From a virus, in IMG/VR virus record IMGVR_UViG_3300037264_002101, positions 1-26,405 of that record: a DNA stretch of 26,405 nucleotides; one strand, given 5' to 3'. Position numbers and translations under genes: made by a program. Positions 1-13,663 of the stretch are shown piece after piece. The notes under the pieces are model-generated. The model was given only the letters and a program-made list of their open reading frames with translations, was not told where the DNA came from and ran no database searches. The first letter of the stretch is position 1; every line of letters starts with the position of its first letter.

Positions 1-126
1 TATGGCCACATCAAGGGCTGCAGCCAATCGGCTGGCGACGTGAGGTGAGCAATTTCGTGATCCATTCTCGATCTGGCTGAGGAAGGGTGGGGAGACTGAG
101 CACGGGGTTAAGTCTACCGCACCTAG

Positions 127-198
127 TCCGCCCCCGAGGGATCGAACCCCGATCTCAACGCTTAAAAGGCGCGACTCTACCGATTGAGTTAGAGGCGG
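127..198 (-). tRNA. tRNA-Lys(TTT)
   Basis: Cloverleaf on the minus strand: acceptor CCGCCTC/GGGGCGG, anticodon loop CTTTTAA, T-loop TTCGATC. The anticodon stem has one outer mismatch. CCA is not encoded. Last gene of the first array; its 5' end overlaps the stop of the small CDS 189-359. Confidence 0.9.
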
Positions 199-359
199 GT
201 GGACTGCTGGGCCGGAGGTGGGGCCTGTTTGCAGAAGCAGTCGTCTCCGAGTTGGGCGTGCCACCACTCGTAGGGGTAGTCCACGCGATCGAAGTCGCGC
301 TTGCCGGGAGGGGTGGCAATGCCGTAGCCAGTCCAATGGTTGATGCCGGTGGTACTCAT
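189..359 (-). CDS. Small hypothetical protein inside tRNA array 1
   Basis: A 56-aa frame fills the space between the two Lys tRNA genes. The ATG lies 4 nt after the 3' end of tRNA-Lys(CTT), and the stop falls inside the 5' end of tRNA-Lys(TTT). The product starts MSTTGINHWTGYG and is rich in aromatic residues (WTGYG, DYPYEWWH), with a CFC motif near residue 42 and a Pro/Gln-rich tail. A G-rich stretch in the tRNA acceptor stem could serve as ribosome binding site. I do not recognise the family. It fits the gap exactly, which favours a real gene, but chance is possible. Confidence 0.5.
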   Translation of the reverse strand: MSTTGINHWTGYGIATPPGKRDFDRVDYPYEWWHAQLGDDCFCKQAPPPAQQSTRL

Positions 360-362
360 AAG

Positions 363-434
363 TCCGCCCCCAGGTACTCGAAACCTGCTCTGCCGATTAA
401 GAGTCGGCTGCATCACCATCAATGCTTGAGGCGG
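363..434 (-). tRNA. tRNA-Lys(CTT)
   Basis: Acceptor CCGCCTC/GGGGGCGG region, D-arm GCAT/ATGC, anticodon loop CTCTTAA, T-loop TTCGAGT. CCA not encoded. Acceptor stem nearly identical to the neighbouring Lys(TTT), suggesting duplication. Confidence 0.93.
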
Positions 435-445
435 TAGTGCTTGCG

Positions 446-517
446 CTCCGAGAGAGGGACTCGAACCCCCACGAACTGATTAACAGTCAGCCATGCAGCC
501 TATTACATCATCTCGGA
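446..517 (-). tRNA. tRNA-Asn(GTT)
   Basis: Acceptor TCCGAGA/TCTCGGA, anticodon loop CTGTTAA, T-arm GGGGG/CCCTC with loop TTCGAGT. Discriminator G; CCA not encoded. Confidence 0.93.
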
Positions 518-537
518 ATGTGATACTACTTAGATGG

Positions 538-624
538 GGTGACGGACGGAAATCGAATCCGCGAAGGGCTTTCACCCACCAGGGTCACAACCTGGCGCAA
601 CAAACCAACAGTTGCCTCCGCCAC
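538..624 (-). tRNA. tRNA-His(GTG) with a long variable arm
   Basis: Acceptor GTGGCGG/CCGTCAC, discriminator C and encoded CCA as in bacterial tRNA-His. Anticodon stem CCAGG/CCTGG with loop TTGTGAC. The variable region is 16 nt and folds as GGGT-GAAA-GCCC, a type II arm not expected in tRNA-His. T53-61 is an A-T pair, and no G-1 is encoded opposite C73. Confidence 0.85.
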
Positions 625-626
625 AG

Positions 627-697
627 CACCGGGGGAAGGACTCGAACCCTCATAGGCTGCCCCAAAAACAGCCGTCCTGCCATTGAACGACCCCGGT
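627..697 (-). tRNA. tRNA-Gln(TTG)
   Basis: Acceptor ACCGGGG/CCCCGGT, anticodon loop TTTTGGG (anticodon TTG), T-loop TTCGAGT. CCA not encoded. Confidence 0.92.
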
Positions 698-715
698 AGG
701 TATTCAGTTTTCAAG

Positions 716-788
716 CACCGAGAGAAGGACTCGAACCCTCACTTCTGCGTTCAGAGCACAGCGTGACTGCCAATTACACCATCTCGGT
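716..788 (-). tRNA. tRNA-Gln(CTG)
   Basis: Acceptor ACCGAGA/TCTCGGT, anticodon loop CTCTGAA, T-arm GAGGG/CCTTC. CCA not encoded. Paralogue of the adjacent Gln(TTG). Confidence 0.92.
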
Positions 789-803
789 ATCTGTTGTCTT
801 ACG

Positions 804-877
804 TCTAGGTGGGGAGAATCGAACTCCCATGATGTCCACGTCCCAAACGTGGCGGCTTACCGTTAGCCCACACCTAG
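804..877 (-). tRNA. tRNA-Pro(TGG)
   Basis: Acceptor CTAGGTG/CACCTAG, anticodon stem CCACG/CGTGG with loop TTTGGGA, T-loop TTCGATT. CCA not encoded. Confidence 0.94.
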
Positions 878-955
878 TTGGTCGGAGAGCCAGGACGCTG
901 CCCCTGGCCTAACGGCCCCGATGGCCGCCGTGCGCTCAACACTTCTCTCCGATGG

Positions 956-1027
956 TCGGGTAGAGAGGAATCGAACCTCCTTAGTCTCGGCCCCGAACCG
1001 AGTGCCTTGCCATCCGGCACCTACCCG
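956..1027 (-). tRNA. tRNA-Pro(CGG)
   Basis: Acceptor CGGGTAG/CTACCCG, anticodon stem CTCGG/CCGAG with loop TTCGGGG, discriminator A and encoded CCA. Confidence 0.94.
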
Positions 1028-1055
1028 TTGATCTCGATTGTCAAGGAACCCTGCG

Positions 1056-1139
1056 TGTCCAAGGAGGGACTTGAACCCTCACGACCTTTCGGCCAGCGCT
1101 TTTTGAGAACGCCGTGTCTACCAGTTCCACCACAAGGAC
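1056..1139 (-). tRNA. tRNA-Leu(CAA)
   Basis: Type II tRNA with a long variable arm. Anticodon loop CTCAAAA; Leu-type D-arm TGGTGGAACTGGTAGACAC. The acceptor GTCCTTG/CTTGGAC has two T-T mismatches at pairs 5 and 6, so it may be weakened. CCA not encoded. Confidence 0.88.
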
Positions 1140-1190
1140 ATGATGTTGCGTTTGTTGCGTTTGGCATGATGTTGCGTTTGTTGCGTTTGG
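1139..1190. repeat. 26-bp perfect tandem repeat (two copies)
   Basis: Positions 1139-1164 and 1165-1190 are identical and contain TTGCGTTTG subrepeats. They fill the spacer between two Leu tRNA genes, consistent with local slippage or duplication during array growth. Confidence 0.95.
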
Positions 1191-1273
1191 TCCGAGCGGA
1201 GGGACTTGAACCCTCACGACCTTGCGGCCAACAGCCTCTCAGACTGCCGTGTCTGCCATTCCACCACGCTCGG
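1191..1273 (-). tRNA. tRNA-Leu(GAG)
   Basis: Type II tRNA: acceptor CCGAGCG/CGCTCGG, anticodon loop CTGAGAG, long variable arm, T-loop TTCAAGT, encoded CCA. Confidence 0.93.
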
Positions 1274-1277
1274 TTGG

Positions 1278-1359
1278 TCCGAATGGAGGGAGTCGAACCC
1301 TCATGACCGAAGCCCACGCCTTCTGAGGACGTTGCGTATGCCAGTTCCGCCACATTCGG
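1278..1359 (-). tRNA. tRNA-Leu(CAG)
   Basis: Type II tRNA: acceptor CCGAATG/CATTCGG, anticodon loop CTCAGAA, T-loop TTCGACT, encoded CCA. Confidence 0.93.
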
Positions 1360-1363
1360 ATGG

Positions 1364-1445
1364 TGCGGGAGGAGGGACTTGAACCCTCACGTCCGAGGAC
1401 ACCGGGGCTTAAACCCGGCGCGGCTGCCAGTTACGCCACCCCCGC
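1364..1445 (-). tRNA. tRNA-Leu(TAA)
   Basis: Type II tRNA: acceptor GCGGGGG/CTCCCGC, anticodon stem CCGGG/CCCGG with loop TTTAAGC, T-loop TTCAAGT, encoded CCA. First tRNA after the leader ORF of array 1. Confidence 0.94.
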
Positions 1446-1480: not shown

Positions 1481-1585
1481 CTACCCCTGTTGAGCCTGGG
1501 GATTCAGCGGTCGTCCGGTGAGACGCGGCTGATGTCGCCCTGGCTTGGCCTTGGAAGGCTGCGGTAGGAGGAGCAATCGGGACAT
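1481..1585 (-). CDS. Leader mini-ORF of tRNA array 1 (34 codons)
   Basis: The ATG lies 6 nt after the TACAGT -10 box at 1592-1597, so the transcript is predicted to start at or next to the A of the start codon (leaderless). The 34-aa product starts MSRLLLLPQPSKAKPGR and is basic and Pro/Gln-rich. It ends 35 nt before the first Leu tRNA. The same arrangement of promoter, tiny ORF and tRNAs recurs at 9123 and 12634. It may encode a peptide or be a translated leader that controls array expression. No family recognised. Confidence 0.55.
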   Translation of the reverse strand: MSRLLLLPQPSKAKPGRHQPRLTGRPLNPQAQQG

Positions 1586-1591: not shown

Positions 1592-1614
1592 ACTGTATCA
1601 CGCTGGGGTGACAG
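1592..1614 (-). promoter_or_regulatory. Promoter for tRNA array 1
   Basis: CTGTCA-N11-TACAGT, with TTGCGA 19 nt upstream of the -10 box. The CTGTCACCCC core is shared with the promoters at 5911, 9220 and 12695. It overlaps the last codons of the 62-aa CDS upstream. Confidence 0.7.
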
Positions 1615-2570: not shown

Positions 2571-2572
2571 CG

Positions 2573-3656: not shown

Positions 3657-4290
3657 TCAGAACTTGCCCTTCATGAAATCCCCAAGACGCCAGGAACGGC
3701 CCGTGTCGTGGTCCACTACCTCATTGCGCTGAGTGTTGTGAGTGAAGGATTTGGCCGAACGCTCAGCGTCGATCTGAGTACGTCGCTGGGCATTGCTTAT
3801 GTGCGACTCCTCGGCTGCACGGTGGGCCGCTATCCGTTCAGATAGCACCTTCCGCGCCTCTTGGCGGTTCTGCCACTGAGATCGCCCATCGATGCGAACT
3901 TCGACCCCCGTAGGAACGTGTGTCAAAATGACACACGAGTCCGTCTTGTTGCGATGCTGACCGCCGGGGCCGGAGCCTCGGGCGAACCGCTCGGTAAGAT
4001 CATCCTCATTAAGTACGAAATCGCTTTCGATCTGATCGAGGATCGCGACAGTGGCGGTAGAGGTATGGCGCCGCTGCTCCCCCTTAGGGATGCGCTGGAC
4101 GCGGTGGGTGCCGATGAAGGGTTCGAGGAAGGTGGTATCACTCACCTCCAAGATCATCGTGCGAGCGGAGTCATCGACGCTGGAATCAATCCCACGTCGG
4201 CGCGCGGCGGAACGCAGAGCGTCAAAGCAACTCCTTGGAGAAGCGTTGCGCGTCGTCACCACCCTCGCCTGGCCTGATTTCAACTCGCAT
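3657..4290 (-). CDS. Class I release factor-like protein, made by +1 programmed frameshift
   Basis: Frame 0 starts at ATG 4290 (AGAAGGAG six nt upstream), encodes 22 residues starting [17 protein letters not shown], then meets CTT TGA C. Shifting +1 at CTT joins a 188-codon frame to give about 210 aa. The joined protein matches release factor domains 2-4: [20 protein letters not shown] (about 60-68), RRHTS, catalytic GSGPGGQ with GGQ at about 109-111, and a typical RF C-terminus. Domain 1 is missing. The codon-reading segment is [11 protein letters not shown], with neither the RF1 PxT nor the RF2 SPF tripeptide, so stop-codon specificity is unclear. The downstream frame alone lacks the EIRPGEGG start and would need a TTG codon at 4283. 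It lies between tRNA array 2 and recA, in the same direction. It could alternatively be a ribosome-rescue factor. Confidence 0.88.
4221..4236 (-). promoter_or_regulatory. RF2-type +1 programmed frameshift site
   Basis: Minus strand reads AAGGAG TTG CTT TGA C: a Shine-Dalgarno-like hexamer, three-nt spacer, slippery CTT, UGA stop and C as fourth base. The geometry is that of the bacterial prfB autoregulatory site. The +1 frame gives the correct RF sequence immediately downstream. Confidence 0.88.
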
Positions 4291-4401: not shown

Positions 4402-4405
4402 ATGG

Positions 4406-4477
4406 AGCACCGGCCGGGAGTCGAACCCGGTTCTGCTGTTTACGAGACAGCCGCATCGCCGTCAATGCTTCCAGTGC
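4406..4477 (-). tRNA. tRNA-Thr(CGT)
   Basis: Acceptor GCACTGG/CCGGTGC, D-arm GCAT/ATGC, anticodon stem GCTGT/ACAGC with loop CTCGTAA, encoded CCA. Its CCA end is one nt from the next tRNA. Confidence 0.94.
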
Positions 4478-4548
4478 ATGGGCGAGATGTCGTTACTTGG
4501 GGCGTCCCCCTCGACCTCGCCCTCACGGGTGGAGGCATCTCACTTTGG

Positions 4549-4620
4549 AGCACCCACAGAGACTTGAACTCTGCTCTGCGGCTTACCATGCCGCCGTCTC
4601 GCCATCTAGACCTTGGGTGC
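4549..4620 (-). tRNA. tRNA-Thr(GGT)
   Basis: Acceptor GCACCCA/TGGGTGC, anticodon stem GCGGC/GCCGC with loop ATGGTAA, T-loop TTCAAGT, encoded CCA. Confidence 0.94.
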
Positions 4621-4624
4621 GTGG

Positions 4625-4695
4625 TAGCGACGGAGGGAATCGAACCCTCTACCACCGCTTATGGGGCGGCTGCCTCGCCAATCGGCCTCGTCGCA
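4625..4695 (-). tRNA. tRNA-Met or tRNA-Ile2 (CAT), C33
   Basis: Acceptor TGCGACG/CGTCGCT with a T1-T72 mismatch, encoded CCA. Anticodon stem GCCGC/GCGGT, loop CCCATAA: C stands at position 33 where U is nearly universal. D-stem GCC/GGC has C11-G24, the elongator pattern. A lysidine-modified Ile2 cannot be excluded. Confidence 0.8.
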
Positions 4696-4707
4696 TCGAT
4701 CCTTGCG

Positions 4708-4781
4708 TGCACAGAGCGGGACTCGAACCCGCGCATTTCCTCCGTGTCGTGGAGGGGCCTTTCCAACTTGGCCACCTGTGC
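4708..4781 (-). tRNA. tRNA-Val(GAC), C33
   Basis: Acceptor GCACAGG/TCTGTGC, anticodon stem CCTCC/GGAGG with loop ACGACAC, so position 33 is C. T-arm GCGGG/CCCGC with loop TTCGAGT. CCA not encoded. Confidence 0.85.
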
Positions 4782-4785
4782 TTGG

Positions 4786-4858
4786 TCGGACACCTGAGAA
4801 TCGAACTCAGCGCGATCGCCTTATCAGGACGACTCCATCACCAGATGAACCGTGTCCG
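4786..4858 (-). tRNA. tRNA-Ile(GAT)
   Basis: Acceptor CGGACAC/GTGTCCG, anticodon stem TCGTC/GGCGA with loop CTGATAA, T-arm CTGAG/CTCAG, encoded CCA. Short D-loop. Confidence 0.9.
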
Positions 4859-4862
4859 TTGG

Positions 4863-4933
4863 AGCACCAGGCAGGAGTCGAACCTGCGTATACGGCTTTG
4901 CAGGCCGCCGCCTAACCACTCGGCCACTGGTGC
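4863..4933 (-). tRNA. tRNA-Cys(GCA)
   Basis: Acceptor GCACCAG/CTGGTGC, anticodon loop CTGCAAA, T-loop TTCGACT, discriminator T with encoded CCA. Confidence 0.94.
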
Positions 4934-4998
4934 TTGAGTTGTCACCTACACACGCTTGACGTGAACTGGTGACGTATTGCTGTCACTGATGACAGTGG

Positions 4999-5069
4999 TC
5001 GGCCCGGCAGGAATCGAACCTGCGTCTCTGCCGTGTGAAAGCAGCACTAAGCCACTCAGTTACGGGCCG
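4999..5069 (-). tRNA. tRNA-Val(CAC)
   Basis: Acceptor CGGCCCG/CGGGCCG, anticodon stem CTGCT/GGCAG with loop TTCACAC, T-arm GCAGG/CCTGC, encoded CCA. Confidence 0.92.
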
Positions 5070-5121
5070 ATGTCCTTCGGTGTTCACTGTTCGCTCATCC
5101 GCGAACAGGAAACACCTTGTG

Positions 5122-5193
5122 TGGTTCCCCCCGGAATCGAACCGAGTCCTGCAGTGCTTCACGCTGCCGTGCCTCCACTTACACCTGAGAACC
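5122..5193 (-). tRNA. tRNA-Phe(GAA)
   Basis: Acceptor GGTTCTC/GGGAACC, anticodon loop GTGAAGC, T-arm CTCGG/CCGGG with loop TTCGATT. The innermost anticodon-stem pair is C-A. CCA not encoded. Confidence 0.9.
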
Positions 5194-5197
5194 TTGG

Positions 5198-5269
5198 AGC
5201 GGTCAGGGAGAATTGAACTCCCCTCTCCTGCTTGGCAAGCAGGTGTCTCGCCAACTAGACCTTGACCGC
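5198..5269 (-). tRNA. tRNA-Gly(GCC)
   Basis: Acceptor GCGGTCA/TGACCGC, anticodon stem CCTGC/GCAGG with loop TTGCCAA, T-loop TTCAATT, encoded CCA. Confidence 0.95.
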
Positions 5270-5280
5270 ATTGTTGTTGG

Positions 5281-5352
5281 AGCGGCGCAGGGGACTCGAA
5301 CCCCTCTCCTCTGCTTGGAAGGCAGATACATCACCATCAATGCTTGCGCCGC
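5281..5352 (-). tRNA. tRNA-Gly(TCC)
   Basis: Acceptor GCGGCGC/GCGCCGC, anticodon stem TCTGC/GCAGA with loop CTTCCAA, T-loop TTCGAGT, encoded CCA. Confidence 0.95.
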
Positions 5353-5375
5353 ATGCTTGTCCGTCGGCCCCTCAG

Positions 5376-5443
5376 TGGAGTACCAGGGACTCGAACCCTG
5401 CAATGCCTCGCTGCCAGCGAAGCGCGCGCCCTGCGCGTACCCC
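5376..5443 (-). tRNA. tRNA-Ala(GGC), very short D-arm
   Basis: Acceptor GGGGTAC/GTACTCC keeps the G3-U70 alanine identity pair. Anticodon stem CTTCG/CGAGG with loop CTGGCAG. The D region is compressed (GCGC-AGG-GCGC), giving a 68-nt gene. CCA not encoded. Confidence 0.8.
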
Positions 5444-5484
5444 ATATTGACCCTATTCAGTTGTCAAAGATCATCGTCTTACAG

Positions 5485-5558
5485 TGGAGCCGGAGGGAAT
5501 CGAACCCTCCTCACGGTGCTTGCAAAGCACTGTCGCCTGCCTTGGAACATGCGACCCC
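5485..5558 (-). tRNA. tRNA-Ala(TGC)
   Basis: Acceptor GGGGTCG/CGGCTCC with G3-U70, anticodon loop TTTGCAA, T-arm GAGGG/CCCTC. The D-arm pairs poorly. CCA not encoded. Confidence 0.82.
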
Positions 5559-5565
5559 AGGTGTT

Positions 5566-5592
5566 GGGTGGGGGGCCGAAGCCCCCTCACCC
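5566..5592 (-). terminator. GC-rich UUCG hairpin between initiator-like and Ala tRNAs
   Basis: On the minus strand GGGTG-A-GGGGGC, loop TTCG, GCCCCC-CACCC: 11 pairs, one bulged A, and a C(UUCG)G loop. No T tract follows. It resembles U-less actinobacterial terminators and could attenuate the array after the first tRNA. Confidence 0.55.
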
Positions 5593-5693
5593 GAGTCCGA
5601 CAAGTGGCCTGCACCATCTCGTCGGGATTCAGACCTCAGGAGTCCGCCTCTGGTTCTTCCAGTGGGCGCTCCGTCATCGGTCTGGCAGGTTGG

Positions 5694-5766
5694 TGGCGGC
5701 TACGGGAGTTGAACCCGATGTCTCCTGGTTATGAGCCAGGCGAGTAAACCGTTTCTCTCAGCCGCG
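5694..5766 (-). tRNA. tRNA-Met(CAT), initiator-like
   Basis: Acceptor CGCGGCT/AGCCGCC has an unpaired C1-C72, D-stem GAG/CTC gives A11-U24, and the 5' end starts CGCGG, all initiator features. Anticodon stem CCTGG/CCAGG (not the full GGG/CCC), loop CTCATAA, encoded CCA. First tRNA behind the array 2 leader. Confidence 0.85.
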
Positions 5767-5783
5767 AACCGTTGCTACCAGCG

Positions 5784-5867
5784 TCAGCCGGTAAATCGAC
5801 CGGCGCCTACGGGAATCCCCATGGCGGCGCCGGTCATCTCAGTTGTGATGCTCGTGCACGCTCGCAT
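5784..5867 (-). CDS. Leader mini-ORF of tRNA array 2 (27 codons)
   Basis: The 27-aa frame starts MRACTSITTEMTGAAMGIPV and has a strong Shine-Dalgarno, GGAGGTGA, six nt before the ATG. It lies between the array 2 promoter (5911-5933) and tRNA-Met. Unlike the other three leader ORFs it has a 43-nt 5' leader. No family recognised; the strong ribosome binding site supports translation. Confidence 0.6.
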   Translation of the reverse strand: MRACTSITTEMTGAAMGIPVGAGRFTG

Positions 5868-5910: not shown

Positions 5911-5933
5911 ACTGTAGCACGGAGGGGTGACAG
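5911..5933 (-). promoter_or_regulatory. Promoter for tRNA array 2, RF, recA
   Basis: CTGTCA-N11-TACAGT with TTGCGA 19 nt upstream of the -10 box. It begins about a dozen bases after the stop of the nucleotidyltransferase gene, and the CCTTGCGAGCCTGTCACCCC block is identical to that at array 1. Confidence 0.7.
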
Positions 5934-7565: not shown

Positions 7566-7572
7566 GAGGTCG

Positions 7573-7595: not shown

Positions 7596-7596
7596 G

Positions 7597-7668
7597 CGCC
7601 CTCACGAGGAGTCGAACCCCGATCCACCGCTTAGAGGGCGGGTGTCCTGTCCGTTGGACGATGAAGGC
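7597..7668 (-). tRNA. tRNA-Arg(TCT), C33
   Basis: Acceptor GCCTTCA/TGAGGGC, D-arm GTCC/GGAC, anticodon loop CCTCTAA, so position 33 is C instead of U. T-arm CGGGG/CCTCG. CCA not encoded. Confidence 0.85.
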
Positions 7669-7672
7669 TTGG

Positions 7673-7745
7673 TGCCCCCGCTGGGACTCGAACCCAGACC
7701 TGCCCTTTAGGAGAGGGCCGTGGTAATCCCTTCCACCACGGGGGC
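7673..7745 (-). tRNA. tRNA-Arg(CCT)
   Basis: Acceptor GCCCCCG/CGGGGGC, anticodon stem GCCCT/AGGGC with loop CTCCTAA, T-loop TTCGAGT, encoded CCA. Confidence 0.94.
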
Positions 7746-7760
7746 CAGATAATCTTTGCC

Positions 7761-8126
7761 ATGGACTTCTTCGCGACCGCCACGCTAACGGTAGCCCTGA
7801 TGGCTGGTGCGTCCTTCGTCGGCCGCATGGCCTACATGGCCAAACATGCCCCCGTCCCCGAGGGGGACAGGCCACGCAAGGGGTGGACCGTCGCCTGGGT
7901 TGTCTGGCTGGTGGCGGCGATCCTGGGGTTCTTCGCCATTGAGGTTCCGGCACTTCTGAATGACAGCGGGGGCGACACCCTCACCGAGCACATCCAGTTC
8001 GTCGCCGGGCAATCGCCCGCGTGGGCGATCATCGTGGCTGGTGGGATCGTGTCCTTCTTCGCATGGTTCCTCAAGCATCTATTTGACAAGGACTCGCGGG
8101 TCTGGGGTTACCTTCACCGCAAGTGA
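7761..8126 (+). CDS. Small membrane protein, holin-like topology
   Basis: 121 aa, the only plus-strand gene within the arrays. Three hydrophobic segments are visible: about 4-20 (ATATLTVALMAGASFVG), 44-62 (VAWVVWLVAAILGFFAIEV) and 90-107 (AWAIIVAGGIVSFFAWFL), with a charged tail. GATAAT stands 7 nt before the ATG, consistent with a leaderless start, but no TGTCA element precedes it. Topology would fit a holin or a host-envelope protein; no lysis gene is visible nearby, so function is open. It is antisense to any read-through transcript of array 3. Confidence 0.75.
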   Translation: MDFFATATLTVALMAGASFVGRMAYMAKHAPVPEGDRPRKGWTVAWVVWLVAAILGFFAIEVPALLNDSGGDTLTEHIQFVAGQSPAWAIIVAGGIVSFFAWFLKHLFDKDSRVWGYLHRK

Positions 8127-8130
8127 TTGG

Positions 8131-8202
8131 TCGGGATGGGGAGAATCGAACTCCCTACTTCTCGCCCCCCAGACGAGCGTTCTACCGATGAACTACATCC
8201 CG
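8131..8202 (-). tRNA. tRNA-Pro(GGG)
   Basis: Acceptor CGGGATG/CATCCCG, anticodon stem CTCGT/GCGAG with loop CTGGGGG, T-loop TTCGATT, encoded CCA. Third Pro isoacceptor. Confidence 0.93.
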
Positions 8203-8215
8203 TTGTGTTGTTGCG

Positions 8216-8287
8216 CCCCCCACCCAGGAGTTGAACCTGGACCTGTGCCTTCGGAGGACACCGTGATCTCCGTTTCACCAATGGGGG
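8216..8287 (-). tRNA. tRNA-Arg(CCG)
   Basis: Acceptor CCCCCAT/GTGGGGG, anticodon stem GTGTC/GGCAC with loop CTCCGAA, T-loop TTCAACT. CCA not encoded. Confidence 0.92.
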
Positions 8288-8299
8288 ATATGTGTTTGG

Positions 8300-8373
8300 C
8301 GCGCCCGGCAGGACTCGAACCTGCAGCCTCTTGATTCGTAGTCAAGTGTCCTAATCCATTAGACCACGAGCGC
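8300..8373 (-). tRNA. tRNA-Arg(ACG)
   Basis: Acceptor GCGCTCG/CGGGCGC, anticodon stem CTTGA/TCAAG with loop CTACGAA, T-loop TTCGAGT, encoded CCA. A34 would need host TadA to become inosine. Confidence 0.94.
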
Positions 8374-8385
8374 ATGTTGTATTCG

Positions 8386-8456
8386 CAGGAGTGTGGAGAA
8401 TCGAACTCCATCGACATGAGTTTTGGAGACTCACCGGCTACCTCAGCCTCACTCCT
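8386..8456 (-). tRNA. tRNA-Trp(CCA)
   Basis: Acceptor AGGAGTG/CACTCCT, anticodon stem TGAGT/ACTCA with loop CTCCAAA, T-loop TTCGATT. CCA not encoded. The 5' end overlaps the HNH stop codon by 2 nt. Confidence 0.94.
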
Positions 8457-8805
8457 ATGTTGGTTGCAACCGAGTATGGGTCCTGAGCCGATGGCAGTTC
8501 GAGCAAACCAACTCGCACTTGGCCACCTCGTCCTTCAACTTCTGCCAGTTCCCCATGATCACTAAGGTCGAAATCTTGTCCACCTTGTCCGACCCCTCGG
8601 GGTGGTCGAAATCCATGACGCAGGGCGGATAGACCTCCCCGCAGTCCGAACACGGACCAGATTTCTGCTCATCGACCCAAGAGCGCATCTCAGCCTTTCG
8701 CTGAACTGCCCTCCCTTTGTAAACCTCCTTGTTCCTGCGGTAGTGCTCTTTGCGGTACTCCCGCATCTTCCCTTGATTTGCCTCTCTCCACTCTGGTGTT
8801 GACAT
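8455..8805 (-). CDS. HNH endonuclease-like protein
   Basis: 116 aa. The N-terminal half is basic and helical (MREYRKEHYRRNKEVY). Residues about 52-112 form an HNH/zinc module: CSDCG, then DFDHPEG, then CELVCSNCHRLRTH. The two Cys pairs would hold zinc and DH plus the later His would be catalytic. Such small HNH proteins often behave as mobile endonucleases; its insertion between Trp and Glu tRNAs, with 2-nt overlap, fits that. TACCAT lies 6 nt before the ATG, so a leaderless start is possible, though the upstream TGTCA element is not recognisable. Confidence 0.85.
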   Translation of the reverse strand: MSTPEWREANQGKMREYRKEHYRRNKEVYKGRAVQRKAEMRSWVDEQKSGPCSDCGEVYPPCVMDFDHPEGSDKVDKISTLVIMGNWQKLKDEVAKCELVCSNCHRLRTHTRLQPT

Positions 8806-8848
8806 GCTCCCATGGTATCAAACCTTGGGGCGAGTTTTGAGTCTTGCG

Positions 8849-8920
8849 TCCCCCGACAGGGAATCGAACCCTGTTCTGAACCTTGAAAGAGTTCCGTCCT
8901 AACCAATGAACGACCGGGGG
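8849..8920 (-). tRNA. tRNA-Glu(TTC)
   Basis: Acceptor CCCCCGG/TCGGGGG, D-arm GTTC/GGAC type, anticodon stem GAACT/GGTTC with loop CTTTCAA, T-loop TTCGATT. CCA not encoded. Confidence 0.94.
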
Positions 8921-8932
8921 TTGTTGTTGTGG

Positions 8933-9004
8933 CGGTCTATAGGGGTATCGATCCCCTTACTTCACCTTGACAAGATGATGTGATAGCCAGTTCACCAATA
9001 GACC
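8933..9004 (-). tRNA. tRNA-Asp(GTC)
   Basis: Acceptor GGTCTAT/ATAGACC, anticodon stem TCATC/GGTGA with loop TTGTCAA, encoded CCA. The T-loop is ATCGATA, so T54 is replaced by A. Confidence 0.9.
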
Positions 9005-9018
9005 TTGGTGGTGTTGCG

Positions 9019-9089
9019 TCCCCCCGCCGGGACTCGAACCCGATTCTCCTGCTTGAGAGGCAGGTGACGCACCCTATGTCTCCGGGGGG
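9019..9089 (-). tRNA. tRNA-Glu(CTC)
   Basis: Acceptor CCCCCCG/CGGGGGG, anticodon stem CCTGC/GCAGG with loop CTCTCAA, T-loop TTCGAGT. CCA not encoded. First tRNA of array 3. Confidence 0.94.
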
Positions 9090-9122
9090 CTGATGCCCGC
9101 ACCCGGAATCGGGAGAGGGCTA

Positions 9123-9212
9123 TTAGCGCTCGGGGCGCTCGACAGGTCGCGCATCGCGACGCCAGCGCCGGGAGCGCTGATCTCGTTCGCGGAAGTCGGT
9201 AGACCTAGACAT
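9123..9212 (-). CDS. Leader mini-ORF of tRNA array 3 (29 codons)
   Basis: The ATG lies 7 nt after the TAGAGT -10 box, so the mRNA is predicted leaderless. The 29-aa peptide starts MSRSTDFRERDQRSRRWRRD and contains about ten Arg, giving a strongly basic, possibly RNA-binding peptide. It ends 33 nt before tRNA-Glu(CTC). Together with the ORFs at 1481 and 12634 it forms a recurring promoter-miniORF-tRNA unit. The peptide sequences are not alike, which favours a positional or regulatory role, but a product function is possible. Confidence 0.58.
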   Translation of the reverse strand: MSRSTDFRERDQRSRRWRRDARPVERPER

Positions 9213-9219
9213 GGCTATG

Positions 9220-9242
9220 ACTCTACCACACGGGGGTGACAG
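9220..9242 (-). promoter_or_regulatory. Promoter for tRNA array 3
   Basis: CTGTCA-N11-TAGAGT with TTGCTT 19 nt upstream of the -10 box; placed directly after the whiB stop codon. Shares the CTGTCACCCC core with the other array promoters. Confidence 0.7.
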
Positions 9243-9254
9243 CGAAGCAAGGGG

Positions 9255-9536: not shown

Positions 9537-9549
9537 CATCTGAACTAAT

Positions 9550-10407
9550 TCAGAAGTCCCCGTAGGCAACCTGGAAACAGGTCAGACCGGCGTCACGCCA
9601 CATCCTCACGACCTGATCGCGGTCATCAATGACCAACACGGGGTTCCAGTGAGGGAGGATGTCCCGTTCCAGAATCTCGCGCTTGATGATCGAGTCCTTC
9701 CGCATGTCGCCCTCGGGACGCATCAGCACGCTGACGAAGGGAACGTCGTACTGCATCAGCCACGCCATGGTGTCCCGACGAACCTGCTCGGTGCCTTCAC
9801 GACCCGAGCACACCACGACGTGCCGCGTCTCGGCCAGCATCTTGACCAACTCCACGACCCGAGGGTTCGGGGCGTCCTCCAAGCACTTCTCGTACTCGAA
9901 GGGGCCGCGGCTGACGTGAAGGGCGAGGGTGCCGTCCACATCGACCACAACGCACTCAGGGAGGCTCTCATCGACCGTGACGGTCACATCCGGCTTGAGG
10001 TGGTCGTTGAACATCCTCATGATGACCTCGGCCCCCACCGAGCGATCGCGGGTGAGGTCGCGCTTAATACACTCCTCGGGCGTCACGTCGGTGAAGTCCT
10101 TCGTCTCGAAGTGGGCGCCGAACTCACGCGCCAACTCCCTGAGGTGATCGACCACGCCATGCTGGATGTTGGTGTCATCACAGATGACCGTGAGGCCATC
10201 CGCCAGACCGGCACGGATGAGGGCGTCACGGGCGACCTTGGTCGCCTTCTCCTTGCCCTTGGACCATTTGGTATCACCGTGCAACATCACGCGGAGCGAG
10301 TCGCGATTTACGACCACCGTGTTGCCGGGGTTCTTCTTCACTTGTTCGGCCGCCCAGGTGGACTTGCCCGATGCGGGTAATCCTTGTGTTGCAATCAACT
10401 TGATCAT
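9550..10407 (-). CDS. pnkp: Polynucleotide 5'-kinase / 3'-phosphatase
   Basis: 285 aa, T4 Pnkp domain order. The N-terminal kinase has a P-loop GLPASGKST (residues 9-17), NRD (34-36) and a DDTN motif (77-80). The C-terminal phosphatase of the HAD type has DVDGT (156-160), CSGRE (200-204) and IDDRD (260-264). The enzyme heals broken RNA ends by removing 3' phosphates and phosphorylating 5' ends before ligation. Its start overlaps the RNA ligase stop by 4 nt (ATGA), so the two are translationally coupled. All key residues are present. Confidence 0.94.
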   Translation of the reverse strand: MIKLIATQGLPASGKSTWAAEQVKKNPGNTVVVNRDSLRVMLHGDTKWSKGKEKATKVARDALIRAGLADGLTVICDDTNIQHGVVDHLRELAREFGAHFETKDFTDVTPEECIKRDLTRDRSVGAEVIMRMFNDHLKPDVTVTVDESLPECVVVDVDGTLALHVSRGPFEYEKCLEDAPNPRVVELVKMLAETRHVVVCSGREGTEQVRRDTMAWLMQYDVPFVSVLMRPEGDMRKDSIIKREILERDILPHWNPVLVIDDRDQVVRMWRDAGLTCFQVAYGDF

Positions 10408-11498
10408 GTTTCTTCCTCTCGATCTACGAATGGCTTCTCTGCTGCGGGCTTGATCATCTGCCAGATGGCCGGGGCGATGTCCTTGCCGTCAAACAGCGAG
10501 AACATCAGGCCGGGGGACGACGACTTCTTAGCCCTAGCAGCGAAAGCCTTGCGGTCCCCGTCGGGCGTGTTGTGACAGATGATGCTGAACTCCTCGTAGG
10601 CCGCATCTTCGATGGTCTTGAATTGCAGGTTGAGGTCGGAGATGACTCCCTTGACCCAGCCGTAGAACTCATCAGGAACGCGGTCCAGCACGTCGGTGAA
10701 GTCACCGCCACGGGCGAGGACTTCCCAGACACGCTTGGAGTTGATGCCAGTGATGATCCGGTGGAGCCGGACGTACTCGGGGTGCTTCACCTTGAGCCGG
10801 AATGAAGGCTCGCCGGGGCGGTACCAGACCGCCACGACACCCTCGTCCTCCTCATGATTGTTCCCCGTGGCGAAACGGTAAACCGCATCCATGTCGCCAA
10901 CACCAACGTGCTGGGTGGTGCGAGCACCGAGCCACCAGTCGATCTCCCACAAGGGGATGTCGGCTCCGGTAGCGATGTCGATGGCACCCAACATGACCAA
11001 CTCTGCCCGATCGCCATAGTTCACAACGATGCGGTTCTCGGGAAAGATGATCTCCACCAGGGTGGTGACACCTTCGGGTTGAGTGAAGTCGGGCATCTCG
11101 GCGTTCAGCCAGGCCGTGGCCCAGATGGCCTGATCGCTCATGAACGACCCACGGGTGGACACGGCGAAGCGACCATCGGGACGCTTGTAGATGATGCCAA
11201 GCGAGCCGTCCATCTTCTCCGTCACGATGGGCGGAATGGTCAGGGCGAACTTCGGAACAGTCGTCTCGGAGTGGTTGAAGAACTTGGGGAAAGGGCGCGC
11301 CAACACTTTGCCGTCGCTGGCGACAATCAGTCCACGACACGCCGAGGTCACGGGCGTCCAAGCGCGGGTGATCTGGCAGATCGATGAGTAGTTGTAGATC
11401 GTCAGGTCGAACTCGGGATGGCTCTGCGTCATGAGGTGCTTGGCCTCGATGGCCGCACGAATGTCGTCGTCCGAGAACAGGTCGTTGATGTGGGTCAT
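10404..11498 (-). CDS. RNA ligase, T4 Rnl1-like
   Basis: 364 aa. Nucleotidyltransferase motif I is EKMDGS with lysine 95 as the predicted AMP-accepting residue. Motif III-like E149 lies in TLVEIIFPENRIV, motif IV is EGVVAVW (219-225) and motif V is KVKHPEY (236-242). Upstream, ACRGLIV (about 53-59) is the Rnl1-type conserved R. A helical C-terminal domain follows, as in tRNA-specific Rnl1. With Pnkp it forms the classical RNA break-repair pair that restores tRNAs cut by anticodon nucleases. A good ribosome binding site (AAAGGAGG) precedes the ATG. Confidence 0.93.
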   Translation of the reverse strand: MTHINDLFSDDDIRAAIEAKHLMTQSHPEFDLTIYNYSSICQITRAWTPVTSACRGLIVASDGKVLARPFPKFFNHSETTVPKFALTIPPIVTEKMDGSLGIIYKRPDGRFAVSTRGSFMSDQAIWATAWLNAEMPDFTQPEGVTTLVEIIFPENRIVVNYGDRAELVMLGAIDIATGADIPLWEIDWWLGARTTQHVGVGDMDAVYRFATGNNHEEDEGVVAVWYRPGEPSFRLKVKHPEYVRLHRIITGINSKRVWEVLARGGDFTDVLDRVPDEFYGWVKGVISDLNLQFKTIEDAAYEEFSIICHNTPDGDRKAFAARAKKSSSPGLMFSLFDGKDIAPAIWQMIKPAAEKPFVDREEET

Positions 11499-11522
11499 GG
11501 TGTCCTCCTTTCGTCAGGGGGG

Positions 11523-11545
11523 ACTATACACCCCAGGCATGACAA
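11523..11545 (-). promoter_or_regulatory. Promoter of the RNA ligase-Pnkp operon
   Basis: TTGTCA-N11-TATAGT, with a 24-nt leader carrying GAAAGGAGGACACC before ATG 11498. Divergent from the promoter at 11548; the two TGTC elements stand back to back (TGACA-AGCC-TGTCC). Confidence 0.75.
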
Positions 11546-11547
11546 GC

Positions 11548-11570
11548 CTGTCCGGGTTAAGGAGTACGGT
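11548..11570 (+). promoter_or_regulatory. Leaderless promoter of the zinc/HTH gene
   Basis: CTGTCC-N11-TACGGT, 6 nt before ATG 11577. One base differs from the TGTCA element. Confidence 0.65.
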
Positions 11571-11576
11571 GTGCTC

Positions 11577-11978
11577 ATGCGAACGTGCAACAACTGCCTC
11601 AAGACCCTTCACCGTCGGTGTGAACGCAACGAATGCGCTTGCACGGTCTGTGGGTCGAGGGATCGTCGGCCGATCGCCACAGTGAAGCCACCCACTCCAC
11701 CCCGCGCTCGCGCCCCACGCCCTCCTAGGGATCGGGCTTACTCCACCAGCGACAAGGCGGCGTACATGCGCGAGTACCGTCGGCGTAAGGCTGCTGGGGA
11801 GGTCGAAGGGACCTATCGACGCACTACCCCCGACGATCTCCGCCGCATGGTGGAGTTGCGACTACAGGGCCTCACCTACCGAGAGATCGGCGAGGAGTTG
11901 GGCATGGACCACTCTTATGTGGCCCGCCTCACCAAGAGCGAGATGGCGGAAGGCCGAGGTCCTGCCCCCCAGGGCTGA
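11577..11978 (+). CDS. Zinc-finger plus HTH DNA-binding protein
   Basis: 133 aa, starting MRTCNNCLKTLHRRCERN. The N-terminus has CNNC, RRCERNECACTVC cysteines that could form a zinc ribbon. A Pro/Arg-rich linker follows, then a YMREYRRRKAAGE helix, and a C-terminal helix-turn-helix (LRLQGLTYREIGEELGMDHSYVARL), similar to resolvase or sigma-like HTH. The ATG at 11577 is chosen from the leaderless promoter; a longer in-frame start at 11418 lies inside the ligase gene. Its last 12 codons run across the 3' half of tRNA-Ser(TGA) on the other strand. Probably a regulator. Confidence 0.82.
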   Translation: MRTCNNCLKTLHRRCERNECACTVCGSRDRRPIATVKPPTPPRARAPRPPRDRAYSTSDKAAYMREYRRRKAAGEVEGTYRRTTPDDLRRMVELRLQGLTYREIGEELGMDHSYVARLTKSEMAEGRGPAPQG

Positions 11979-12031
11979 CGCCCCCGTCCGCTTTCAAGGC
12001 GGCGCCCGCTCGCTTGTCGGGTTGACCTTCC
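11947..12031 (-). tRNA. tRNA-Ser(TGA)-like, T-loop replaced (possible pseudogene)
   Basis: Acceptor GGAAGGT/GCCTTCC, anticodon loop CTTGAAA, long variable arm and encoded CCA are intact. T-stem TGGGG/CCTCG matches its neighbours, but the loop is GGCAGGA instead of TTCGAGT. The changed part lies under the 3' end of the plus-strand CDS. It may be non-functional. Confidence 0.6.
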
Positions 12032-12035
12032 GTGG

Positions 12036-12120
12036 CGGAGAGCGGAGCACTTGAAGCCCATGGTGTTACCCACGACTCGCTTTCGAGGCGGTCCCGGCGC
12101 GCCTGTCCGGTTCACTCTCC
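12036..12120 (-). tRNA. tRNA-Ser(CGA)
   Basis: Acceptor GGAGAGT/GCTCTCC, anticodon loop CTCGAAA, long variable arm, T-loop TTCAAGT, encoded CCA. The two outer anticodon-stem pairs and one T-stem pair are mismatched. Confidence 0.78.
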
Positions 12121-12123
12121 ATG

Positions 12124-12148
12124 ACAGGTTCTCGTAACGAGAACCTGT
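12124..12148. repeat. 25-bp palindrome between Ser tRNAs
   Basis: ACAGGTTCTCGT, one central A, then the exact complement: 12-bp arms. It abuts the CCA end of tRNA-Ser(GGA). Possible processing hairpin or protein-binding dyad. Confidence 0.93.
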
Positions 12149-12150
12149 GG

Positions 12151-12237
12151 CGGAGAGCCGAGGACTCGAACCCCACGCCCTTTCGGGCGCCAACTCGCTT
12201 CCAACGAGCGCCGGTACGCCTGCCCGGTTGACTCTCC
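12151..12237 (-). tRNA. tRNA-Ser(GGA)
   Basis: Acceptor GGAGAGT/GCTCTCC, anticodon stem GCTCG/CGAGT with loop TTGGAAG, variable arm CGCCCGAAAGGGCG, T-loop TTCGAGT, encoded CCA. Confidence 0.95.
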
Positions 12238-12239
12238 AT

Positions 12240-12302
12240 GATGTCGGCGAACGACGACATCCCCAGGATGTCGGCGAACGACGACAATCGGCACGATCGT
12301 GC
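12240..12302. repeat. 20-bp direct repeats and palindrome between Ser tRNAs
   Basis: The same 20 bases (GATGTCGGCGAACGACGACA) occur at 12240-12259 and 12267-12286, each able to form a GATGTCG/CGACATC-type hairpin. GCACGATCGTGC at 12291-12302 is a perfect palindrome. Confidence 0.92.
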
Positions 12303-12365
12303 TGATTTCGTTCGGATACAGGCTCACTGACCTGTTTCGGGCTGAAATCGGCACGTTCGTTCCGG

Positions 12366-12452
12366 CGGAAGGCCGAGGACTTGAACCCCACCCCCCGGAG
12401 GGGGCGAACTCCTTAGCAGGGAGTCCCAGCACGCCTGTCTGGTTGACCTTCC
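12366..12452 (-). tRNA. tRNA-Ser(GCT)
   Basis: Acceptor GGAAGGT/GCCTTCC, anticodon stem ACTCC/GGAGT with loop CTGCTAA, variable arm CCCCCTCCGGGGGG, T-loop TTCAAGT. Followed by CCG, so CCA is not encoded. Confidence 0.95.
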
Positions 12453-12457
12453 ATGTC

Positions 12458-12515
12458 GCTTAGGTTTGGACCGGCTTCTGTGCCCTGGGGGCACGGATTC
12501 AGGTCTAGACCTAAG
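12458..12515 (-). repeat. Long imperfect hairpin between Ser and Tyr tRNAs
   Basis: Outer arms CTTAGGT/ACCTAAG, middle GACC/GGTC and inner GTGCCC/GGGCAC stems stack into one 58-nt hairpin. Could be a spacer RNA structure, a processing signal or a small RNA. Confidence 0.6.
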
Positions 12516-12518
12516 TGG

Positions 12519-12601
12519 TGAGGGTGGAGGGAATCGAACCCCCTCAGGCAATGCCAACTGGTTTACAGCCAGCCCCGGCTCTCCAACTCCGGCGCACCCT
12601 C
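12519..12601 (-). tRNA. tRNA-Tyr(GTA)
   Basis: Acceptor GAGGGTG/CACCCTC, anticodon stem GCTGG/CCAGT with loop CTGTAAA, long variable arm, T-loop TTCGATT, encoded CCA. First tRNA of array 4. Confidence 0.95.
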
Positions 12602-12633
12602 TCGTGAGAGCGAGCGCCAGAGAACGCGCTCGC

Positions 12634-12687
12634 TCAACTACTCGATGAGTAGGAGGAATAGACCTCGGAGACGGAGAAGCGCTTCAT
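12634..12687 (-). CDS. Leader mini-ORF of tRNA array 4 (17 codons)
   Basis: ATG 7 nt after the TAAGGT -10 box (leaderless geometry). The peptide MKRFSVSEVYSSYSSSS is Ser/Tyr-rich (9 Ser, 2 Tyr of 17 residues), and the array it precedes encodes only Ser and Tyr tRNAs. Its codons TCC, TCA, TCG, AGT and TAT/TAC use exactly those tRNAs. This looks like an attenuator-type leader peptide, although the mechanism is inference. It ends 32 nt before tRNA-Tyr. Confidence 0.62.
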   Translation of the reverse strand: MKRFSVSEVYSSYSSSS

Positions 12688-12694
12688 GGGGACC

Positions 12695-12717
12695 ACCTTA
12701 GCACCTAGGGGTGACAG
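12695..12717 (-). promoter_or_regulatory. Promoter for tRNA array 4
   Basis: CTGTCA-N11-TAAGGT with TTGATT 19 nt upstream of the -10 box, adjacent to the dNMP kinase stop codon. Confidence 0.7.
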
Positions 12718-12721
12718 GCAA

Positions 12722-13315
12722 TCAAGAGATTCGGAGCACCTGGGTGTAGGAGCGACCAAAGAACTGCTCCAAGCGCGTCAGCATGTCGATGGGTCGCGAG
12801 TTGTTCTGCATGAACAAGTCGAAGCCCCACACGTCCAGATCATGCTCGGAAGCATGGTCATTGAGTGCTACGACCCCAGGACGCTGAATACGGATGGTGC
12901 GCCCCCCGGCTGCCTTGACTGCTTGGGCCTCGTTCTGGAAGCGCATGTCGGACAACACCACCCGTCGGTGTGCCTGCGCCCGCTTCATCGCAAGATCGAC
13001 CCAGAAGTCCGTACCCAAGATGTTGCGGCCCGCCTCGGTCCCAAGGCGCTGCAGGAATTGACGCATTTCGGGGTAGAGCGCCTTGGCTTCGGTGTAGCCG
13101 TGAAACTCCAAGGCATCCGAGTAGCGGATGATCTCATCCTCGCTGGGGTTGTCAGTCCCCATCACCCCCACGATGGGATTGATGGCCGCTGCGATCTCGC
13201 GCATGGGATCGGCGAAGGCGATCTTGACAAAAGAGAAATGTTCTACAAGCAGATCAGCCAGGGTGTCCTTCCCTGCCCCTGCGTACCCGGCAATCCCGAT
13301 CAGTGCTTCCGGCAT
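12722..13315 (-). CDS. Deoxynucleoside monophosphate kinase
   Basis: 197 aa. A P-loop GYAGAGKDT (residues 10-18) begins a phage-type dNMP kinase. LVEHFSFVKIAFADPMREIA, the RQFLQRLGTEAGRNILGTDFWV segment and VVLSDMRFQNEA are typical of the family that converts dNMPs to dNDPs for phage DNA synthesis. The start lies inside the 3' end of the zinc-ribbon gene (about 62-nt overlap), and a GAGAGGAACC stretch precedes the annotated ATG region. It is the last gene of the minus-strand structural operon. Confidence 0.9.
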   Translation of the reverse strand: MPEALIGIAGYAGAGKDTLADLLVEHFSFVKIAFADPMREIAAAINPIVGVMGTDNPSEDEIIRYSDALEFHGYTEAKALYPEMRQFLQRLGTEAGRNILGTDFWVDLAMKRAQAHRRVVLSDMRFQNEAQAVKAAGGRTIRIQRPGVVALNDHASEHDLDVWGFDLFMQNNSRPIDMLTRLEQFFGRSYTQVLRIS

Positions 13316-13442
13316 CTAGGTTCCTCTCTGGCATAGGGCATGGTTCGCCCTCACAGCAAGAATCTTTCCAGCCGCACCCCGGACATAGCCATCGAGTGGC
13401 CTCAGGCTTGTAGGAAGTGCCGCAGACCGCGCACTCTACCAT
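13254..13442 (-). CDS. Small zinc-ribbon protein
   Basis: 62 aa, beginning MVECAVCGTSYKPEATRW. CAVC and CPGC pairs (residues 4-7 and 18-21 region) followed by a CCEGEPCP cluster suggest zinc binding. The ATG overlaps the stop of the upstream gene as TGATG, and the 3' third overlaps dNMP kinase in another frame. The overlapping tail is unlike the N-terminus and may be poorly constrained. No specific function recognised. Confidence 0.65.
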   Translation of the reverse strand: MVECAVCGTSYKPEATRWLCPGCGWKDSCCEGEPCPMPERNLDAGSTDRDCRVRRGREGHPG

Positions 13443-13663
13443 CAACGGTTCTCCCCGAACAGATGCTCAATCAACCAGCCCAGAATGAGCCAGAGTCCGA
13501 GACGGCCGATCTTGTGGACGCGCAGCCGATGCCACACCTCGGTAATCGTCGGGACTTTCCTAGTGAGGATGCCCGTGATCTCCCAGGAGCACAAGACGAG
13601 GACGACGGCGGCCCGCCAATCCTTTCGATCTACAAATCGTTCAAGTAGAAATACGCGCTCCAC
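13442..13663 (-). CDS. Small protein with one membrane segment
   Basis: 73 aa from a GTG that overlaps the stop of the phosphoesterase gene (TAGTG arrangement). ERFVDRKDWRAAVVLVLC and the C-terminal GLWLILGWLIEHLFGENR give a hydrophobic middle and a membrane-like C-terminal segment near residues 52-64. TITEVWHRLRVHK is basic. The tight start-stop overlaps on both sides show an operon with coupled translation. Function unknown. Confidence 0.65.
   Translation of the reverse strand: MERVFLLERFVDRKDWRAAVVLVLCSWEITGILTRKVPTITEVWHRLRVHKIGRLGLWLILGWLIEHLFGENR

Follow-up and report, generated by a model that had tools for sequence, protein, structure and literature searches.

Short leader reading frames matched to their own tRNA arrays point to attenuation-like control of tRNA genes in tailed phages

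Each of the four tRNA arrays of the virus genome analysed here is headed by a short open reading frame (ORF) whose amino-acid composition matches the tRNAs of that array. As these leaders are rich in the amino acids of their own array, we suggest that the arrays are switched by the supply of those tRNAs to ribosomes: ribosome-mediated, attenuation-like control of the phage tRNA arrays by their own aminoacyl-tRNAs is, in our assessment, the probable explanation. The computed support consists of the matched composition, a common promoter-like element, coding constraint in several pairs of relatives, conserved hairpins, and a second group of phages with terminators and antiterminators. The window, i.e. 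the whole stretch of DNA analysed, is a 26,405-base virus record from IMG/VR; its features are collected in table 1.

Table 1. Features discussed in the text. Coordinates refer to the window unless another record is named.
Feature	Position	Strand	Description
Promoter-like box A	12695..12717	minus	7 nt upstream of the leader A ATG
Leader ORF A, MKRFSVSEVYSSYSSSS	12634..12687	minus	17 codons, M K R F S V S E V Y S S Y S S S S stop; precedes the Tyr/Ser array
Hairpin H1, CTACTC ATC GAGTAG	12638..12652	minus	within the 3' end of leader A; 3/6 pairs changed on both sides, six records
Hairpin T, GAGCGAGCGC ... GCGCTCGCTC	12608..12635	minus	begins at the leader A stop codon; 3/10 pairs changed on both sides, six records; without T run
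Array A	11943..12601	minus	tRNA Tyr(gta), Ser(gct), Ser(gga), Ser(cga), Ser(tga); first three by ARAGORN, last two by eye and similarity
Promoter-like box B	9220..9242	minus	pattern match
Leader ORF B, MSRSTDFRERDQRSRRWRRDARPVERPER	9123..9212	minus	precedes array B; set E,D,W,R,P
Leader B hairpin, CCGGGTGCGGGC ATCA GCCCCCCGG	9082..9106	minus	closes leader B; built with the 5' strand of tRNA-Glu, which opens array B
Array B	7596..9089	minus	Glu, Asp, Glu, Trp, Arg, Arg, Pro(ggg), Arg, Arg tRNAs, with protein genes interspersed; ARAGORN
Promoter-like box C	5911..5933	minus	pattern match
Leader ORF C, MRACTSITTEMTGAAMGIPVGAGRFTG	5784..5867	minus	precedes array C; set M,F,A,G,V,C,I,T
Leader C hairpin segments 1:2, 2:3, 3:4 (GACCGGCGCC, GGCGCCGGTC, TACCGGC, GCTGGTA)	5776..5835	minus	surround the leader C stop codon; overlapping, by eye; without T run
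Array C	4403..5765	minus	Met, Ala, Ala, Gly, Gly, Phe, Val, Cys, Ile, Val, Met, Thr, Thr tRNAs; ARAGORN, Phe by eye
Promoter-like box D	1592..1614	minus	pattern match
Leader ORF D, MSRLLLLPQPSKAKPGRHQPRLTGRPLNPQAQQG	1481..1585	minus	precedes array D; set L,P,Q,H,N,K
Array D	126..1445	minus	Leu x4, Pro x2, Gln x2, His, Asn, Lys x2 tRNAs; ARAGORN
T4 Rnl1-type RNA ligase	10404..11498	minus	phrog_562, 1e-61
Polynucleotide kinase	9550..10407	minus	phrog_505, 1e-92
RF-1-domain protein	3657..4283	minus	GGQ motif in translation; phrog_20323, 8e-7
Leader/attenuator loci of the second group	CcrRogue L131:19746-19883 and 21650-21745; phiCbK L216; further records L212-L224		leaders matched to arrays

ARAGORN finds 36 tRNA genes in the window, without exception on the minus strand, and the set covers all 20 amino acids once three genes recognized by eye or by similarity (Phe, Ser(cga) and Ser(tga)) are added. 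The original prediction, made from this sequence alone, was that a Ser/Tyr-rich leader peptide precedes an array of Tyr and Ser tRNAs exclusively. Both parts are borne out: 10 of the 16 residues after Met in leader A are Ser or Tyr (1.3 expected, p = 5e-8), and the array downstream carries no other tRNA. Its Ser(cga) and Ser(tga) genes are detected by neither ARAGORN nor Rfam; Ser(cga), read by eye, is 73% identical to the Ser(gga) stretch, and Ser(tga) shares about 89% identity with its counterpart in the related record L014. In the window Ser(tga) (12031-11943, minus) the T-loop TTCGA is replaced, so this gene may be degenerating. The Phe tRNA of array C is detected by ARAGORN in the relative L013. 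Short direct repeats are visible by eye in the inter-tRNA spacers at window positions 12240-12290 and 1190-1140 (GATGTCGGCGAACGACGAC twice and AAACGCAACATCATG-type twice).

The same prediction held that no other leader shows such an obvious match, and this is contradicted by leaders B, C and D, all of which match their own arrays. By a binomial test against 17 window proteins (5541 residues), the residues belonging to the own array number 20 of 28 in leader B (8.4 expected, p = 7e-6), 21 of 26 in leader C (11.1 expected, p = 8e-5) and 21 of 33 in leader D (8.1 expected, p = 2.5e-6). No window leader is enriched for the amino-acid set of any other array, and the true leader–array pairing ranks first of 24 in the window, L013, L014 and L047 (four of four genomes). 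A cognate codon is found in the own leader for 36 of the 38 tRNA species, the exceptions being the two Val tRNAs of array C; leader A covers 5/5 species of its array and leader D 12/12 (random-codon leaders cover on average 1.3/5, 5.0/9, 6.8/12 and 6.6/12). There is no codon preference beyond the amino acids: 1233 of 5000 synonymous shuffles do equally well or better, so the match sits at the amino-acid level, and a match at the codon level was dropped.

Control ORFs upstream of tRNA genes lack such enrichment. Among 226 upstream ORFs of 59 tRNA clusters in 32 other tRNA-bearing records, none reaches p<1e-4 and one falls below 1e-3. This control excluded 34 entries, 21 of the window family (window included) and 13 of the Caulobacter/Brevundimonas group described below, and duplicates were removed by their first 2000 bases. 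An earlier control with slightly different cluster settings (30 clusters, 100 ORFs) gave a best p of 4.5e-4. No leader comparable to those of the window was found in Francesca, Racecar, Zooman, DSS3_MAL1 and the other tRNA-rich phages of the 32-record control, and none below p = 0.002 in Rhodobacter phage RcXuper.

All four leader ORFs have upstream a common promoter-like box, CTGTCACCCC-N3-GTGNTANNGT. The box has four matches in the window, all heading leaders, where 0.11 would be expected by chance (up to three mismatches), for a pattern derived from the same four sites that it then matched. The ATG of leaders A, B and D follows the box by 6-7 nt, so that their mRNAs are probably leaderless; the message of leader C has a 5' leader bearing a Shine–Dalgarno-like GGAGGTG. 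A search for the box in viral contigs gave no matches, and relatives were therefore located via protein genes, namely the RNA ligase (79% identical to that of the window in L012, 75% in L013 and 72% in L014) and the dNMP kinase (54% in L001 and 52% in L047), and their flanks were fetched. Scanning viral sequences again, this time using the RNA ligase alignment, returned no new close relative besides L012-L014, window leader B had no match in the phage collection, and no close relative was found in the host search of genome contigs. The leader C motif occurs at 18 loci in viral contigs. The leader itself is present at two of them, L032 and L039 (the records of L014 and L013); the others are unrelated reading frames.

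A matched leader stands at every array head found in this family: six of six records for array A, five of five for B and four of four each for C and D, window counted. The Ser/Tyr bias is thus retained in all six records that hold array A. All 19 leaders in the six records are enriched for the amino-acid sets of the window, which were applied to the whole family, and are rich in codons for the amino acids of the genes that they would regulate; the weakest value is p = 1.9e-3 (leader D of L047). Because automatic scanning divided or truncated some arrays of the family (e.g. Leu-only in L014, p = 0.09), the family statistics use arrays read by hand. Leaders B, C and D of L047 (METREVPVEQVEPRWPRSPRVDSEPRRRRDI, MRTVQRAARIITAATFTRGGALGTGTVCID and MMKRLRLTGAHAHKNRQRLGRDKPRPFDAEQLPLHI) are unlike those of the window in sequence and keep their composition; leader D of L013 (MFARLLLLPGPHQAPAAHRKRSQRPPNR) is another divergent version. 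Between the window and L012, leader B has six synonymous and no non-synonymous changes, and between L001 and L047, leader A has seven synonymous and two non-synonymous changes; leader C of L013 has a codon insertion that keeps the frame. The signal is opposite or mixed in other comparisons (0 synonymous and 4 non-synonymous changes in leader A between L012 and L014; 4 and 8 in leader B between the window and L013). These counts indicate a coding constraint that is clear in some pairs and mixed in others.

The leader ends are associated with RNA hairpins. Leader A has two separate hairpins, H1 and T, that covary in six records; an alternative terminator with a T run and a clear antiterminator at leader A were not found. 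In the six records, 93.8% of the H1 and T cells are paired although the bases differ, and 6 of the 16 pairs are changed on both sides, compared with 0–2 when the partners are slid by 1–3 columns. The leader B hairpin shows a compensating change in L014 (GGGC/GCCC to GGGA/TCCC), and the leader C segments are retained in three of three close records save for base differences in segments 1 and 2. A scan of window positions 1-14000 detected no T-run terminator at any leader; as the hairpins have no T run, the window leaders are likened to attenuators and not filed in the class of intrinsic-terminator attenuators. In the window, tRNA is the only Rfam family to attain the gathering score, and a T-box riboswitch was rejected.

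With a ribosome mask at the stop codon of leader A, the 5' strand of tRNA-Tyr pairs upstream with a probability of 0.82 in the window, 0.85 in L013, 0.82 in L014 and 0.46 in L047; with the ribosome further back in the leader, this strand is mostly free. The folding suggests a leader A switch that would sequester the tRNA-Tyr 5' strand when the ribosome is at the stop codon. The fit between the 3' arm of hairpin T and the tRNA 5' end is exceptional in the window and L014 only (1 of 123 other tRNA ends is as good), and complementarity to the 5' end of the first tRNA is absent at leaders C and D. Sequestration of the first tRNA was therefore dropped as a general mechanism, holding only for leader A of these two records, and the candidate controlled steps are Rho-dependent or tailless termination and RNA processing.

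Leaders of this kind also precede tRNA arrays in a second group, the Caulobacter and Brevundimonas phages of the Dolichocephalovirinae, which surfaced by chance: Caulobacter phage CcrRogue had been scanned as a control. Its gp083, MFALSHLSLSTKAASPATLSLALLATAAKPSTKPTTSASHSTETH, precedes a Pro/Thr/Lys/Leu/His/Ala array. The array-2 leaders are enriched for the ARAGORN set of their own phage in six of six phages (p from 1.5e-5 to 6.6e-9, window background): 33/44 in CcrRogue (p = 2e-8), 31/44 in phiCbK (p = 1e-7), 33/38 in CcrSC (p = 7e-9), 29/38 in Colossus (p = 1e-7), 29/38 in PW (p = 1e-7) and 29/44 in Kikimora (p = 1.5e-5). A fixed set of P,T,K,L,H,A,S gives 42/44, 41/44, 32/38, 35/38, 35/38 and 39/44, in the same order (CcrRogue background; p from 3e-8 to 9e-15). 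These fixed-set scores are more flattering, since ARAGORN reports Thr in only two of the six phages (Rogue and SC) and makes no Ser call for Rogue or His call for phiCbK, and our conclusion rests on the own-set scores. Three Ser-tRNA-like sequences can be read by eye in Rogue, for which the phiCbK paper (PMC3556154) lists no Ser tRNA. Array 2 of CcrSC ends with an extra tRNA-Trp and its leader holds a Trp codon, which none of the other five leaders has. A similar leader, with a GTG start, heads array 2 of Bajun. No array-2 terminator was scored in Colossus and PW, and for the array-2 antiterminator a clear excess over shuffles is seen in Kikimora only.

Array 3 of these phages comprises Tyr, Phe, Val, Ile, Gln, Asn and Arg tRNAs, preceded by leaders such as MSKSYRQFVQIQVVRNFRAGRSRMDDGGTFI in 13 of 13 records; the ORF is mostly unannotated. 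Similar peptides occur in 46 phage records, 44 of them from Caulobacter or Brevundimonas phages; the two mycobacteriophage matches lie within an annotated toxin gene and were taken as chance. The array-3 leaders carry a T-run terminator and a mutually exclusive antiterminator. In 11 of the 13 records, a script located an intrinsic terminator 27-32 nt past the stop codon and a segment of the ORF complementary to its 5' arm, with an antiterminator pairing of -26 to -33 kcal/mol equalled by none of 300 shuffles in each record; in phiCbK and Bambus, both elements were read by eye. The RefSeq annotation places phiCbK terminators immediately upstream of arrays, array 3 included. In the folding of five phages, with the pairing of arm 3 computed before arm 4 is made, arm 3 pairs upstream, with the complementary ORF segment, at a probability of 0.89-1.00 when the A-site is at least 57 nt before the stop codon, in the control codons, and of 0.15-0.42 with the A-site at -45, with some later rebound in Rogue and Bajun. 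This model predicts a classical attenuation switch in the array-3 leaders of the five folded phages. At equilibrium the terminator stays above 0.8 throughout in Colossus and PW, and for most stall positions in Rogue, so the array-3 switch in these three phages would have to be kinetic.

Two further observations concern the same genomes. A conserved short ORF (MTHLLTRYEREATGLDTTTA and relatives; L131:19047-19109 and equivalents) precedes Glu/Asp tRNAs in seven Dolichocephalovirinae; its E and D residues are kept, and an enrichment is not visible. In CcrSC, a gene annotated as histidyl-tRNA synthetase (L213:2779-3357) sits among the tRNA arrays.

The amino-acid grouping differs between the two phage groups: Ser shares its array with Tyr in the window family but with Pro/Lys/Leu/His/Ala in the Caulobacter phages. 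In both groups the leaders go with the array. The simplest explanation is therefore that translation of the leader is read out to control the array. Each array would form an operon driven by a promoter of its own, in which the short leader ORF serves as a sensor of the array's own products, as the leader codons require the aminoacyl-tRNAs that the array would supply. If any of these tRNAs became scarce, because amino acids run short or because an anti-phage nuclease cuts host tRNAs, the ribosome translating the leader would stall; the position of the ribosome would determine the choice of RNA hairpins ahead of the first tRNA, and thereby the amount of array made. Shortage would presumably raise array expression, and termination rather than RNA processing is probably the controlled step in the phage of the window. 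The attenuation logic of the original prediction thus stands in part: the fourfold leader–array match, its persistence in divergent relatives and the attenuator anatomy in unrelated phages speak for it, and the missing T-run terminator and the lack of a clear antiterminator at leader A speak against it. As a principle, attenuation is strongly supported by these comparisons.

The leaders might sense tRNA supply and yet act on the processing or stability of the tRNA precursor, the ribosome position governing the fate of a hairpin by the first tRNA: whether it forms, whether it ties up the 5' strand of that tRNA, or whether a nuclease cuts it. This would account for hairpins that have no T run and for a leader B hairpin built from the tRNA-Glu 5' strand itself, and it agrees with the predicted upstream pairing of the tRNA-Tyr 5' strand when the ribosome occupies the stop codon of leader A. 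Given that the unusual complementarity to a tRNA 5' end is confined to leader A of two records and absent for C and D, and that the Caulobacter group has terminators, we consider control at the processing step unlikely.

Much less probable is a direct action of the leader peptides on targets such as ribosomes, tRNA nucleases or synthetases, the peptide composition being a result of binding to these targets. Their protein-level conservation among close relatives would suit an active peptide, but leaders B and C of the window and L047 are alike in composition and little in sequence, the four leaders of one genome are wholly different and each fits its own array, and the hairpins overlap the ORF ends. 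We give even less credence to Ser/Tyr richness as a by-product of RNA structure or base composition, the UCN and AGY serine codons pairing in H1. It is true that H1 falls in the TAC TCA TCG AGT AGT codons of leader A; the composition of leaders B, C and D and of the Caulobacter leaders and the exclusive match to the own array would, however, be left unexplained, and the 226 control ORFs upstream of tRNA clusters lack such enrichment.

Attenuation-like control by aminoacyl-tRNA supply has well-known counterparts. Leader-peptide transcription attenuators are established in amino-acid operons of the trp, his, thr and ilv type. The phage leaders resemble them in the short ORF rich in the relevant amino acids, the own promoter and the exclusive hairpins ahead of the first gene, and the full anatomy is found in the array-3 leaders of the Caulobacter phages. 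They differ in that the output is tRNA genes and not biosynthetic enzymes or synthetases, that one leader senses 2 to 8 amino acids and the four leaders of one genome cover 20, and that the window leaders have no T-run terminator. In mycobacterial cys operons, Cys-rich leader peptides are described without a recognizable intrinsic terminator, and Rho has been suggested (PMC1262725). These actinobacterial leader ORFs are similar in their clustered control codons and the lack of such a terminator, but they respond to a single amino acid and belong to a host metabolic operon.

Phages have been described to carry tRNAs that replace those of the host after cleavage by defence nucleases (PMC10264068, PMC11555353). 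The window shares the tRNA-rich genome of those phages, and the same region encodes the RNA ligase, the polynucleotide kinase and the RF-1-domain protein of table 1; it differs in that expression appears to be regulated per array. The words 'promoter', 'operon', 'transcription' and 'leader' do not occur in the main text of PMC10264068. phiCbK, with 26 tRNA genes according to PMC3556154, has RefSeq-annotated terminators directly before arrays, and the main text of that paper contains neither 'attenuat' nor 'leader peptide'. Among the open papers of PubMed Central, a set without most subscription papers and all preprints, no report of leader peptides or attenuation before phage tRNA arrays was recognized by title or start of abstract.

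The RNA ligase, which we take to be of the T4 Rnl1 type, and the polynucleotide kinase are likely partners in tRNA repair, and the RF-1-domain GGQ protein has a possible role in ribosome rescue. Tools for tRNA repair and stalled ribosomes would fit a phage facing tRNA-cutting defences, should such a trigger exist. L047 retains the polynucleotide kinase and has a KxDG-type ligase and an RtcB-like protein, named from their translations, in place of the Rnl1-type enzyme (L047:14224-15403, L125:3836-5017); this relative appears to use other ligases. The window also encodes an odd fusion, a protein of 1207 aa (15293-18916, minus) whose RNA-ligase-annotated N-terminal part (phrog_2659, phrog_14859) is joined to portal/head-protease-like families.

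The purpose of phage tRNAs has been debated for decades, mostly between codon supply and replacement of host tRNAs cut by defence nucleases. Tailed phages may have evolved, at least twice and with different amino-acid groupings, attenuation-controlled tRNA operons that jointly gauge how well aminoacyl-tRNAs are supplied during infection and replenish only the group that has run low, as an on-demand answer to tRNA-cutting host defences; in the phage of the window, four sensors would cover the 20 amino acids. We offer this broader proposal tentatively, as plausible and somewhat short of probable. If correct, it would describe attenuation with tRNA genes as the output and many amino acids sensed per leader, and the composition of a leader would predict which tRNA operons are regulated. 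If the expression of an array answers a shortage of the very tRNAs that it encodes, this would be direct functional evidence for replacement on demand, which is testable in the classical laboratory pair of phiCbK and Caulobacter crescentus.
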